From Mesorhizobium loti (GTDB lineage: Bacteria > Pseudomonadota > Alphaproteobacteria > Rhizobiales > Rhizobiaceae): a stretch of DNA of 64,000 nucleotides. Shown here one piece after another: positions 1,820-5,778 of this stretch; the stretch's first letter is position 1; the number at the start of each line of letters is the position of its first letter. Position numbers and translations under genes: made by a program. Location: contig NZ_QGGH01000001.1 in NCBI RefSeq assembly GCF_003148495.1, positions 310,986 to 374,985 on the forward strand, given 5' to 3'. Under the pieces are notes generated by a model, which was not told where the DNA came from, ran no database searches, and saw only the letters and a program-made list of their open reading frames with translations.

Positions 1820-3280
1820 TCAAACGACGATCGTTTTAAGCCTTTCGGCGATCAGGGCGGCGAGTCGAGCCGCCACTTCGTCCTTGCTCATCTCGGGCCA
1901 TTCCTCGACGCCGGCCTTGGACACGATCCGCACCCGATTGCGATCGCCGCCCATCACGCCGGAAGGACCGACGCCGCTTCCCTGCGACACGTCGTTGGCA
2001 ACGATGAGATCGGCGCCTTTCTTCTTGAGCTTGGCCTCGGCGTTGCGCAAAAGATCCTGTGTCTCGGCGGCGAAGCCGATAACCAGCCCGGGTCGTTGGC
2101 TGTGATGGCCGACGCCGGCCAGGATGTCGGGATTCTCGACCATGCGCAGCACCGGCGGCCCTTCGCCCGCGACCTTCTTGATCTTCTCATCGGCCGAGTT
2201 CTCCGTACGCCAGTCGGCAACGGCGGCGACGAACACCGCCGCGTCGGCGGGCAGGAGCTGTTCCACCGCATCGCGCATCTCTTGCGCACGTTCGACATGG
2301 ATGGTCTTCACCCCGGCGGGATCGGCGATGCCGACAGGACCGGAGACGAGGTGCACATCGGCGCCGAGCCTGGCCAGTGCTGCCGCGATGGCATGGCCCT
2401 GCTTGCCGGAGGAACGGTTGGCGATGTAGCGCACCGGGTCGATCGGCTCATGCGTCGGGCCGGAGGTGACGATGATCTTGCGCCCCGACAGCGGCCTGGG
2501 GCCGACATCGAGCAGCGCCTCGATGGCGGCGACGATCTCCAGCGGCTCGGCCATGCGGCCTTCGCCCGCCTCATTGCTTTCCGCCATCTCCCCCCTGGCC
2601 GGACCGACAAAGGCGATGCCGTCCTTTTGTAGCGTCGCGCGGTTGCGGCGGGTGGCTGGATGCGCCCACATTCTGGGATTCATGGCCGGCGCCATCAACA
2701 CCGGCTTGTCGGTGGCGACAAGCACGGTGGAGGCCAGATCGTTGGCGTGGCCGTTGGCGAGCTTGGCCATCAGGTCGGCGGTGGCGGGCGCCACCACCAG
2801 CAGATCGGCCTCGCGCGACAGCCTAATATGGCCGACATCGTGCTCATCATTGCGGTCGAACAGGTCGGTAAAGACATGGTCTGCGGAGAGCGCGCCAACC
2901 GACAGCGTGGTAACGAATTCCTGCGCGGCCGATGTCATGACCACCCGAACCGCAGCCCCACGCTCGCGCAGCCGGCGGATCAGATCAAGCGCCTTGTAGG
3001 CGGCGATGCCGCCGCCGATGATGAGCAGGATGCGCTTGCTGGAGAGGCCGCGCGGCATGATTTTCCCTGCGACAACTGGGGCCAGGCCGCGTGCGCTCGC
3101 CAGTTCGCGCAAGGTCTGTTCGATCTGATCGATGCGGCCGGCCGAACCAAGCTGGCCTTCGACGGCAGCACGGATCATCACCCGCGCCTGCTCTTCCATC
3201 GAGCGGTCGTTCTCCGCTGCGAGCTGGCGCAGCAGATCCTTGACCTCGTCGTCAAGATTGCGAATGGTGATGCTGGCCAT
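1820..3280 (-). CDS. coaBC: RHH-CoaBC fusion: phosphopantothenoylcysteine decarboxylase / phosphopantothenate-cysteine ligase
   Basis: 486 residues; makes 4'-phosphopantetheine from phosphopantothenate, cysteine and CTP for coenzyme A. Residues 1-45 are not CoaBC: they read as a FitA/VapB-type ribbon-helix-helix antitoxin domain (ASITIRNLDDEVKDLL then a helix ending IRAAVEGQ). A linker follows to about residue 80. The flavoprotein decarboxylase CoaC then runs from about 83, with the glycine-rich KRILLIIGGGIAAYK, the catalytic His151 in GHIRLSREAD and PAMNPRMW at 198-205. CoaB follows from about 265, with GRKIIVTSGPTHEPIDPVRY and NRSSGKQGH. The usual CoaBC length is about 400, so the extension accounts for the excess. 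A Met at about residue 75 could give a normal-length product. No toxin partner is adjacent. Repeats that could bind the RHH domain lie just upstream (3283-3330). Confidence 0.93.
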   Translation of the reverse strand: MASITIRNLDDEVKDLLRQLAAENDRSMEEQARVMIRAAVEGQLGSAGRIDQIEQTLRELASARGLAPVVAGKIMPRGLSSKRILLIIGGGIAAYKALDLIRRLRERGAAVRVVMTSAAQEFVTTLSVGALSADHVFTDLFDRNDEHDVGHIRLSREADLLVVAPATADLMAKLANGHANDLASTVLVATDKPVLMAPAMNPRMWAHPATRRNRATLQKDGIAFVGPARGEMAESNEAGEGRMAEPLEIVAAIEALLDVGPRPLSGRKIIVTSGPTHEPIDPVRYIANRSSGKQGHAIAAALARLGADVHLVSGPVGIADPAGVKTIHVERAQEMRDAVEQLLPADAAVFVAAVADWRTENSADEKIKKVAGEGPPVLRMVENPDILAGVGHHSQRPGLVIGFAAETQDLLRNAEAKLKKKGADLIVANDVSQGSGVGPSGVMGGDRNRVRIVSKAGVEEWPEMSKDEVAARLAALIAERLKTIVV

Positions 3281-3282
3281 AT

Positions 3283-3330
3283 GATTGCACTCTGCTCAAC
3301 ATTGCCGAATGCAATGATAGCAATGCAATC
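3283..3330 (-). promoter_or_regulatory. Candidate RHH operator repeats upstream of coaBC
   Basis: The 76 bases between the ubiB stop and the coaBC start contain GATTGCA (3283-3289) and its exact reverse complement TGCAATC (3324-3330). They also contain a perfect direct repeat AATGCAAT at 3308-3315 and 3322-3329 (14-base period). Short repeated half-sites next to the start of an RHH gene are the usual form of RHH autoregulatory operators. That the N-terminal domain of coaBC binds here is inference. Confidence 0.45.
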
Positions 3331-3356
3331 ACTTTGGGACAAGCCGTTCCAGATCG

Positions 3357-4931
3357 CTAGATGATCTTCCAGGCGATATAGACGAGCGTCAGCGCGATCA
3401 CCCACAGTGCCAGGCGGCCGGAGCGGCTGTAGCGCGCCTCGGCCTTGCCGATGGCGCGCGCGGTTGTCTCGTCGAAGCGCAGGCCGTGCTCGGCCATCAG
3501 GTCGATCTCGCGCGACAGCCGGTCGGTGCGCGCCGCAAGCTCGGGTACCTGGCGGGCCAGCGTCAGCAGCGCCTTGGCGCCGTCGCGCGCATCGATCATC
3601 ATGCCACGTGGACCAAGGTTGCCGGCAATCCAGCCGCCGACCACCGGTTCGGCGGTCTTCCACATATTGAAAGCCGGGTCGAGCGTGCGCGCCACGCCCT
3701 CGACCACCACCATGGTCTTCTGCAGCAGAATCAGCTCCGGCCGCGTCGCCATGTCGAAGAGTTCGGTCACTTCGAACAGCAGGGTCAAAAGCTTGGCCAT
3801 CGAAATGGTCTCGGCCGGCTGGCCGTGGATCGGCTCGCCGATCGCCCGGATCGCCTGCGCGAAGGCCGCGACATTGTGCTGGCGCGGCACATAGCCGGCC
3901 TCGAAATGCACCTCGGCGACGCGCAGATAGTCGCGCGTGATGAAACCGTAGAGGATTTCGGCGAGGAAGCGGCGCTCCTTCTTGCCAAGCCTGCCGGCGA
4001 TGCCGAGATCGACGGCGACGATGGTGCCGTTTGCCTCGACGAAGAGGTTGCCCGGGTGCATGTCGGCGTGGAAGAAGCCGTCGCGCAGCGTGTGGCGCAG
4101 GAACGACTGGATGAGGTTGGCGGCGATCGCCTTCAGATCGTGGCCGGCGGCTTCGAGACCGGCAATGTCGTTCATCTTGACGCCGTCGACCCATTCCATG
4201 GTCAGCACGTCGCGGCCGGTGCGCTCCCAGTCGACGGATGGCACGCGAAAGCCGGGATCGTCCTTGGTGTTTTCGCCCAGTTCCGAAAGGGCGGCCGCCT
4301 CGAGCCTCAGATCCATTTCGATCTTGGTGGTCTGTGCCAGCGTCTCGGTGACCTCGACCGGCCGCAGCCGGCGTGACGACGGGATGTATTTTTCCTGCAG
4401 GCGGGCGGCGAGGAAATAGCTTTCGAGATCCTGGAAGAAGCGGCGGCGCACGCCGGGCCGGATCACCTTGACCGCCATCTTGGTGGCAACGCCGTCATGG
4501 ATGGTGTCGGCGGCATGGACCTGGGCGATGGAAGCGGCTGCGACCGGATCGCCGAATTGCGCGTAGAGATCGGCGACCTTGCGCCCGAGCGAAGCCTCGA
4601 TAGCCGCGATGGCTTCAGCCCTGGGGAAGGTGTGCATCTTGTCTTGCAACATAGCGAGATCGAGCGCCATGTCGTTGCCGACGACGTCGGGCCGTGTCGC
4701 CAGGAACTGGCCGAGCTTGACGTAGGATGGACCGAGCCGGACGACCGCCTTGGCCAGCCGGTCGCTGCGCTCATAGGCAAGCGCGCGGCGGCGGGTGAAC
4801 AGCCGTGCCAGCCGCCAGCCGAACTTCGGCAGGCCTGACAGCTCCTCGCCCGGCAAGGCGGCGACGACGCCCTCGCGAACCAGCACCCAGCCGGCCCTTA
4901 CGAGCCGAAATCCAGCGCTGACCGTGCTCAT
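3357..4931 (-). CDS. ubiB: UbiB, ABC1/ADCK-type ATPase for ubiquinone biosynthesis
   Basis: 524 residues when started at the ATG at 4931 (MSTVSAGFRL); the open frame has 34 more codons upstream, but they overlap poorly with the family. UbiB is an atypical kinase-like ATPase needed for the ubiquinone biosynthetic complex at the inner membrane. Visible marks are the KxGQ motif in VKLGQFLATRPD (about 71-82), the Ala-rich nucleotide loop region AAASIAQVHAA, MAVKVIRPGV, the HADMHPGN catalytic loop, VAVDLGIAGR in place of the DFG motif, and a C-terminal membrane helix (LWVIALTLVYIAW). It lies 70 bases downstream of ubiE on the same strand, the common ubiE-ubiB arrangement. Confidence 0.93.
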   Translation of the reverse strand: MSTVSAGFRLVRAGWVLVREGVVAALPGEELSGLPKFGWRLARLFTRRRALAYERSDRLAKAVVRLGPSYVKLGQFLATRPDVVGNDMALDLAMLQDKMHTFPRAEAIAAIEASLGRKVADLYAQFGDPVAAASIAQVHAADTIHDGVATKMAVKVIRPGVRRRFFQDLESYFLAARLQEKYIPSSRRLRPVEVTETLAQTTKIEMDLRLEAAALSELGENTKDDPGFRVPSVDWERTGRDVLTMEWVDGVKMNDIAGLEAAGHDLKAIAANLIQSFLRHTLRDGFFHADMHPGNLFVEANGTIVAVDLGIAGRLGKKERRFLAEILYGFITRDYLRVAEVHFEAGYVPRQHNVAAFAQAIRAIGEPIHGQPAETISMAKLLTLLFEVTELFDMATRPELILLQKTMVVVEGVARTLDPAFNMWKTAEPVVGGWIAGNLGPRGMMIDARDGAKALLTLARQVPELAARTDRLSREIDLMAEHGLRFDETTARAIGKAEARYSRSGRLALWVIALTLVYIAWKII

Positions 4932-5001
4932 GGCCGCGCCCGTCCTGCCGGCTCGTTGAACCGGCACAGACCACATCGCGTGCGAGAAATGCGAGCCAGC
5001 C

Positions 5002-5778
5002 TCAAAGCTTCCAGCCCGAATGAAGCGCGGCAATACCGCCGGAATAATTGCGGAAGGAAACGCGATCGAAGCCGGCGCGGGAAATCATCGTCGCGAAATT
5101 CTGCTGGTTGGGAAACCTGGCGATCGATTCGACCAGATAGGAATAGGGCTCACCGTCGCCGGTGACCATCTTGCCGATCTTCGGAATCGCATTGAACGAC
5201 CAGGCCTCGTAGGCCTTGTCGAGCAGCGGCATCTCGACTTCGGAAAATTCCAGGCACAGGAAGCGCCCGCCCGGCTTCAGCACGCGAAACGCTTCTGCGA
5301 GCGCGACATCGATGCGCGGCACGTTGCGGATGCCGAAAGCGATGGTGTAGGCGTCGAATGTGGCATCAGCGAAGGGCAGTTCCTCGGCATTGGCCTCGAC
5401 GAAATCGGTGTTGCCGGACAGGCCTTTCTTTTCGGCCCGGTCGCGGCCGACGGCCAGCATCGAGCCATTGATGTCGAGCACGGTGGCATGGGCGTTGCCG
5501 TGGCTGGCATCGACGATGCGGAAGGCGATGTCGCCGGTGCCTCCGGCAACGTCGAGCACCTTCCAGCCCGCCCGTTTCGGCGGGTTGAGCCATGTCACCA
5601 TGGCATCCTTCCACAGCCGGTGCAGGCCAGCCGACATCAGATCGTTCATCAGGTCGTAGCGGTTCGCGACCTTGTGGAAAACATCGTTGACCAGGGACTG
5701 CTTGTCGCCAGCCCCTACACGCTTGAAACCATAGGAGGTTTCCATGCCGCCCGCGGCCGTGGTTCTCTCAACTGACAT
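5002..5778 (-). CDS. ubiE: UbiE, demethylubiquinol/demethylmenaquinol C-methyltransferase
   Basis: 258 residues, the normal length. It is the SAM-dependent C-methyltransferase of ubiquinone synthesis. The SAM-binding glycine loop is [14 protein letters not shown] (about 74-87). The family signature [14 protein letters not shown] sits at about 45-58, and the second family signature region is the later stretch [15 protein letters not shown]. It starts at the ATG at 5776-5778 and is the first gene of a ubiE-ubiB pair; coaBC follows on the same strand 76 bases beyond ubiB. Confidence 0.95.

Follow-up and report, generated by a model that had tools for sequence, protein, structure and literature searches.

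Domain organisation of the fusion protein

In the window, i.e., the whole stretch of 64,000 nucleotides of Mesorhizobium loti DNA that was analysed, positions 1820–3280 of the minus strand contain an open reading frame that starts with ATG and codes for 486 amino acids; unless stated otherwise, the features described below are on the same strand. Judged by its sequence, the locus encodes a complete CoaBC with a FitA-type ribbon-helix-helix (RHH) domain at the amino-terminus. The FitA-like RHH domain comprises residues 1–43 (3152–3280). The Pfam family FitA-like_RHH (PF22513) matches residues 2–40 with 53.0 bits, against a cut-off of 27, and the first 76 residues searched alone score 58.7 bits, bearing out the sequence-only reading, which had assigned the amino-terminal residues to this domain. 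A variable linker follows (residues 44–78, 3047–3151), with one conserved helix (residues 47–63, approximately) and then a stretch of low confidence. The CoaC flavoprotein (decarboxylase) domain is formed by residues 82–254 (2519–3037; PF02441 plus invariant motifs) and the CoaB (DFP, ligase) domain by residues 264–452 (1925–2491; PF04127). The CoaBC profile TIGR00521 covers residues 80–475 with 407.5 bits (cut-off 219.7). In an alignment of 31 proteins, P198-A-M-N, M204-W205 and N288-R-S-S-G-K-Q-G, which we take to be the catalytic motifs of CoaBC, are invariant or almost so, with A199-M-N and M204-W205 of the CoaC domain invariant. The neighbour upstream of coaBC is ubiB (3357–5033, counted from its first possible start). 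The closest named record is from M. norvegicum, with 96% identity over the amino-terminal 138 residues.

When 51 fused RHH domains were combined into a profile and compared with solved structures, gonococcal FitA was the best match (2h1o, 2.9e-7; 2bsq, 5.5e-7); a single-sequence search of the PDB with residues 1–76 matched Arc-type chains and did not find FitA. AlphaFold2 places helices at residues 11–23 and 28–40, plus the linker helix at 47–63, with pLDDT values below 50 for residues 45–49 and 64–76. In a model of the RHH domain alone, helices two and three merge into one (28–63). Foldseek matches of the RHH model include Arc, DNA-bound FitAB, VapB, CopG and the RHH domain of PutA, all with E above 0.1, the PutA domain being a weak fold match only (E of at least 1.0).

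The carboxy-terminal segment with which FitA binds its toxin is absent from the window protein, and proteins with the same RHH type (type A) have the variable linker in its place. This bears on the idea that the RHH domain has kept its antitoxin function and neutralises a FitB-type toxin encoded elsewhere or an incoming one. Such a role would fit the fusions L022, L116 and L176, in which the antitoxin carboxy-terminal segment persists, but the genome of the window offers it little: among 150 scored candidates out of 166, a single FitA-like RHH was found at E ≤ 0.01, and the four PIN matches at E ≤ 0.001 each lie directly downstream of an AbrB/SpoVT-like open reading frame (family assigned by reading). 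We consider a remaining antitoxin role very unlikely. On contig 3 of this genome, an AbrB-type antitoxin and PIN pair (L337) was seen, by reading, between RuvC-like and RuvA-like open reading frames; read in this way, it would be another module inside a core operon.

It had also been proposed that translation from an internal methionine gives a second, shorter product. The window reading frame does have an ATG at codon 75, but of 90 type-A loci only 13 have an in-frame ATG near the junction (codons −12 to +2 of the CoaC start), or 35 when GTG and TTG are counted; of 74 unfused loci, 66 have one at codon −2, −3 or −4. The comparison thus speaks against two products, which we regard as scarcely credible.

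Predicted operator and promoter-like elements

Upstream of the gene, a predicted proximal operator of 21 bp, TGATTGCATTGCTATCATTGC, is located at 3311–3331. It is laid out as TGATTGCA-T-TGCTATCA-TTGC, with TGATTGCA and TGCTATCA as inverted half-sites and TGATTGCA at 3324–3331, and is almost invariant in the 90 congeneric loci of type A (1.39–2.0 bits per column). A distal half-site, TGCAATCA, adjoins the start codon at 3282–3289; columns −9 to −3 are kept in 87–90 of the 90 loci and the final A in 83. The GATTGCA/TGCAATC inverted half-sites of the sequence-only reading are therefore real. Its perfect direct repeat is also present, as AATGCAAT at 3308–3315 and 3322–3329 of the plus strand. The first copy extends into three poorly conserved columns, and as operator unit the repeat was replaced by what the 90 relatives conserve, TGATTGCATTGCTATCATTGC plus the distal TGCAATCA.

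A −35-like hexamer, TTGTCC, is found at 3337–3342, with its T, T and G kept in 88, 90 and 88 of the 90 loci. At a distance of 17 bp, and within the operator, lies TATCAT (3314–3319), a putative −10 element. Most columns flanking the 21 of the operator hold less than 0.6 bits, a contrast that is far beyond chance. Columns above this value are those of the −35 TTG with the positions next to it, a stretch directly before the distal site, and a C and purine downstream of the −10. The C (87 of 90) and the purine (G or A, 88 of 90) are located 7–8 nucleotides past the −10 and may mark the transcription start. The upstream stretches of 100 nucleotides all differ from one another in the 90 loci. The spacing between operator and ATG varies from 48 to 53, which is awkward for rigid cooperative binding. 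In two deeper members (L113 and L120), TGATAGCA or TGATGGCA is paired with TGCTATCA and the distal site is TGCTGTC or TGCTATC, so that proximal and distal sites diverge jointly from the other type-A loci.

In the 7.45-Mb genome, the 21-mer has one match with up to three mismatches and its reversed control none, making coaBC itself the predicted target. Enzyme-regulators that report the supply of a product to other genes are conceivable, and the fused RHH domain could in principle control such genes, with CoaBC reporting coenzyme A (CoA) supply to them; the single match makes this wider role quite improbable.

Selection on the RHH domain

Values of dN/dS were calculated by NG86 for 89 of the 90 type-A loci (L070 was omitted for its linker deletion), with 3915 of 3916 pairs within the pS limits. 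They amount to 0.072 for RHH codons 2–43, 0.374 for the linker and 0.075 for CoaC, of whose core the first 170 codons were used. The RHH domain and the catalytic part are, by this measure, under equal purifying selection, which is not expected of a functionless remnant. The joint conservation of RHH domain and operator in the 90 type-A loci also gives comparative support to the earlier suggestion that the enzyme represses its own gene.

Fusions and toxin-antitoxin loci in the genus

A coaBC gene was found in 145 of 146 genomes of the genus, and the locus was examined in all 145. The RHH domain is fused in 103 of them (90 of type A and 13 of other types), while 34 have a free antitoxin and eight are without RHH. 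In seven of these eight, ubiB is directly followed by coaBC; the eighth (L150) has no ubiB match. All 34 loci with a free RHH antitoxin also have a PIN toxin between ubiB and coaBC, 24 detected with one profile and 10 with a FitB-type profile; representatives of either kind of PIN protein, and three antitoxins, were checked against Pfam. With both PIN profiles, a toxin adjoining a fused RHH-CoaBC was found in none of the 103 fused loci, and none of the 145 loci has a free RHH without a toxin. In three loci (L104, L117 and L138), the toxin reading frame overlaps the start of coaBC. In the fused loci, the ubiB match ends a median of 79 nucleotides before the RHH match, against 177–526 in L006, L013, L050, L080 and L100.

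Distribution beyond the genus

In a family sample, coaBC was found in 386 of 394 genomes, and matches spanning the RHH domain occur in at least 15 other genera among the matches listed. Sixty family loci, taken by state and rank and not at random, comprise 34 fused loci from 15 genera, 20 unfused loci with an RHH or a toxin and six others, including the helix-turn-helix (HTH) fusion L188. Among the 34 fused loci, two (L177 and L179) carry both genes of an RHH-PIN pair upstream of the RHH-CoaBC fusion, and in a third (L176) that position is occupied by a free antitoxin, with no toxin recognised; these are possible intermediates of domain replacement.

In a sample of 397 genomes of the order, 89 genomes matched at E ≤ 1e-30. 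Matches spanning the RHH domain were found in 16 genomes of family f35 (three genera), in one of family f16 and in two of genus g107. The latter pair (L228 and L229) are reduced genomes within the family of the window, in which the fusion has been retained. The best 80 named loci, ranked by similarity to fused amino-termini and with strains that partly overlap the unnamed loci, contain 43 fused, five unfused with toxin and 32 with neither. The fused ones include records from Mesorhizobium, Zhengella, Phyllobacterium, Brucella, Nitratireductor, Bartonella, Bradyrhizobium and Afipia; among these 80, the Rhizobium, Sinorhizobium/Ensifer and Agrobacterium records have neither fusion nor toxin. In a class sample of 385 genomes at E ≤ 1e-33, a threshold that divergent fusions could escape, the only matches were the genome of the window and one other of its order.

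Half-sites upstream of relatives were scored as at least two sites with at most one mismatch to TGATTGCA or TGATAGCA, on either strand, in the 100 nucleotides before the gene. All 90 type-A loci score, partly by construction as the motif was defined on them. So do the 34 fused loci from 15 other genera, all 16 loci scored from f35 and f16 (two other families; of 20 loci, this count leaves out L228 and L229 and the unfused L230 and L231) and, tallied separately, both fused loci of the reduced genomes, with two half-sites each. Of the later fusions described below, 11 of 13 have at least two half-sites and two have fewer; for loci with a free antitoxin the numbers are 49 and four of 53. Only four of 21 loci without RHH score, L188 with its HTH fusion and L201, a cut-off locus, being counted among the 21, compared with 0–1.6% of shuffled upstream sequences. 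Genes of f35 have palindromes such as TGATTGCATTGCAATCA and TGATAGCATTGCTATCA upstream, and relatives of the Bradyrhizobium type combine an RHH-CoaBC with matching half-sites. Of the two findings that the sequence-only reading named as refuting it, orthologues lacking the extension occur: 42 of the 145 loci of the genus (34 with free antitoxin and toxin, eight without RHH) and a clade of 24 loci described below. The repeats are not lost where the extension is present. In L024 and L142, where no antitoxin is left, a short ACAGCA-TGCTGT-like palindrome is seen between ubiB and coaBC; it does not rise above shuffled sequences and is perhaps a scar of a lost module.

History of the fusions

In a FastTree tree of 331 CoaBC cores, in which many forks are weak and named and unnamed strains overlap, all 34 loci of the Bradyrhizobium/Afipia/Xanthobacteraceae-type branch are fused. 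Several lineages without RHH or toxin are located outside this branch and between it and the family of the window. Within that family, most of the early branches carry the fusion, and on the Mesorhizobium side fused and toxin-antitoxin loci are intermixed. RHH and toxin are both missing from one clade of 24 Rhizobium/Sinorhizobium/Agrobacterium-type loci, so the RHH device is dispensable. Fused versus all other states requires 39 changes on this tree. An earlier, narrower tree was made without the Rhizobium/Sinorhizobium-type loci and the second family, and with top-ranked picks as unfused loci; the lineages added in the wider tree weaken claims of one origin. One old fusion followed by losses and separate old fusions both fit.

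The RHH domains tell a complementary part of this history. In a tree of 42 columns, with f35 left out, 122 fused domains (90 of type A and 32 from other genera) cluster without any toxin-associated antitoxin (support 90). Other fused domains nest among or beside toxin-associated antitoxins: L093, L107, L109/L115, L114, L116/L121/L123, L122/L124–L126, L155/L156 and L022. A single recent fusion was rejected because the RHH types differ and the later fusions nest in this way. The idea that the window's type arose simply by loss of a toxin was also revised, as its RHH clusters only with fused RHH domains. We read the trees as an old fusion in the family of the window, or more than one, whose place was then taken by toxin-antitoxin modules in many lineages, and at least six fusions that arose later; L321, which is off the RHH tree, looks by its sequence like a further one.

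The junctions of the later fusions are informative. In L093, antitoxin residues continue to position 68 and are followed by a coaBC leader that matches unfused loci over 33 nucleotides (91%); similar leader stretches are present in L107 (40 nucleotides, 87.5%) and L124 (33 nucleotides, 91%). Almost the entire antitoxin is retained in L022, L114, L116 and L155, and little past the RHH domain in L156. A leader match at the junction was not found for L022 and L126. Outside this set, L176, on an early branch, also retains an antitoxin-like carboxy-terminus. With remnants of the antitoxin and of the coaBC leader at most of them, the junctions of later fusions point to a toxin-antitoxin origin. At the amino-terminus of L109 and L115, the RHH domain of the first antitoxin type is followed by a stretch that resembles the tail of the second type, and the linker looks like two antitoxin tails spliced together.

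These junctions also raise the question of whether the RHH domain is a passive remnant without regulatory role, left where deletion of the toxin removed or uncoupled the coaBC start and only in-frame fusions survived. Toxin deletions in random frames would give six in-frame and no out-of-frame outcomes with P ~0.0014; the frame could instead be imposed by loss of the coaBC start or by translational coupling to the toxin gene. Coupling is suggested by the three loci with overlapping reading frames, and the absence from the genus of a free, toxin-less RHH agrees with the remnant explanation, fusions being in frame by definition. However, a remnant should not have a dN/dS as low as that of the enzyme, an operator that is nearly invariant and an RHH domain retained in 15 other genera and two reduced genomes. 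We therefore hold a purely passive RHH domain to be unlikely.

Other putative DNA-binding domains at CoaBC

Three loci of one genus (L188, L314 and L315) have a short Cro/CI-like domain on the amino-terminus of CoaBC, with Pfam scores of 15–18 bits that are below the cut-offs, and an inverted repeat directly before the ATG. In another genus, L324 has an HTH_19 domain on CoaBC, with 35.5 bits above the cut-off, and GCACAATATTGTGC upstream. An inverted repeat as good was obtained in one of 300 shuffles for L188, 30 of 300 for L314, 20 of 300 for L315 and 30 of 300 for L324; only L188 clearly beat its shuffles, and the HTH palindromes were not accepted as proof of an operator. If these cases are real, unrelated DNA-binding domains, HTH and RHH, would have been recruited to the same enzyme.

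Discussion

Comparison at the level of sequence establishes the fusion, the conserved operator with its promoter-like elements, selection on the RHH domain and the toxin-antitoxin relatives at the locus. We propose that RHH-CoaBC is probably both an enzyme and an autogenous repressor, with a FitA-type RHH domain that comes from a toxin-less FitAB-type antitoxin and reads its own operator. The RHH domain, derived from the antitoxin of a module whose toxin is gone, would dimerise, and pairs of RHH domains would read TGATTGCA/TGCTATCA over the −10 as well as TGCAATCA beside the ATG. As the operator covers the −10, bound CoaBC would block RNA polymerase, and coaBC transcription would be lowered once enough CoaBC is present. 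Coenzyme A, substrates or the oligomeric state may control DNA binding. In mycobacteria, CoaBC forms a dodecamer around a CoaC core, and CoA thioesters inhibit it (PMC7794376). Speculatively, such a dodecamer might supply the multivalency that the toxin gives FitAB.

Parts of this arrangement are known from other systems. PutA is a metabolic flavoenzyme of which the amino-terminal RHH domain represses its own operon (PMC5293562). RHH-CoaBC resembles trifunctional PutA, by sequence, in being a flavoenzyme that has an RHH domain at its amino-terminus and what looks like an operator at the promoter of its gene. It differs in pathway and fold, as its enzyme domains are those of CoaBC and are not PutA homologues; in its RHH domain, which is of the FitA antitoxin type and found at a spot that carries toxin-antitoxin modules in relatives; and in the seemingly repeated acquisition of this domain. 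Like FitAB/VapBC-type modules, which relatives carry at the locus, it has an operator-like palindrome upstream and an RHH domain assigned to their Pfam family, but RHH-CoaBC is without toxin and has the antitoxin domain attached to a coenzyme A-synthesising enzyme. The VapBC complex of S. flexneri, with an AbrB-type antitoxin, binds sites over its own −10 and −35 (PMC3384007). Ordinary CoaBC (Dfp; M. smegmatis, 6TGV) aligns with both catalytic domains (residues 81–478), whereas RHH-CoaBC has about 78 more amino-terminal residues, with the predicted DNA-binding domain, and the operator.

A list of Brucella ovis flavoproteins gives the CoaBC flavoprotein domain as residues 7–180, with no extension (PMC9045290), and the main text of a survey of type II toxin-antitoxin systems contains neither "pantothen" nor COG0452 (PMC2701414). 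A literature search found no report that pairs CoaBC with an RHH domain, vapBC or an antitoxin; subscription journals were mostly outside its scope, so this is weak evidence.

More tentatively, the junction between ubiB and coaBC may repeatedly capture the DNA-binding halves of mobile modules (RHH in one or more old fusions and in at least six that came later, plus two kinds of HTH), each time making CoaBC a self-repressor, with the dodecamer replacing the toxin as the bridge between half-sites and occupancy by CoA or substrate tuning the binding. This wider proposal is possible but doubtful; if true, CoaBC would sense the demand for CoA directly through DNA binding.

How CoaBC levels are set in bacteria is hardly known, and the locus offers a transcriptional answer that can be tested. 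It concerns a large group, with named members in Mesorhizobium, Bradyrhizobium, Phyllobacterium, Brucella and Bartonella, in which toxin-antitoxin modules would several times have turned into the regulator of a core gene, and in which possible intermediate states persist.
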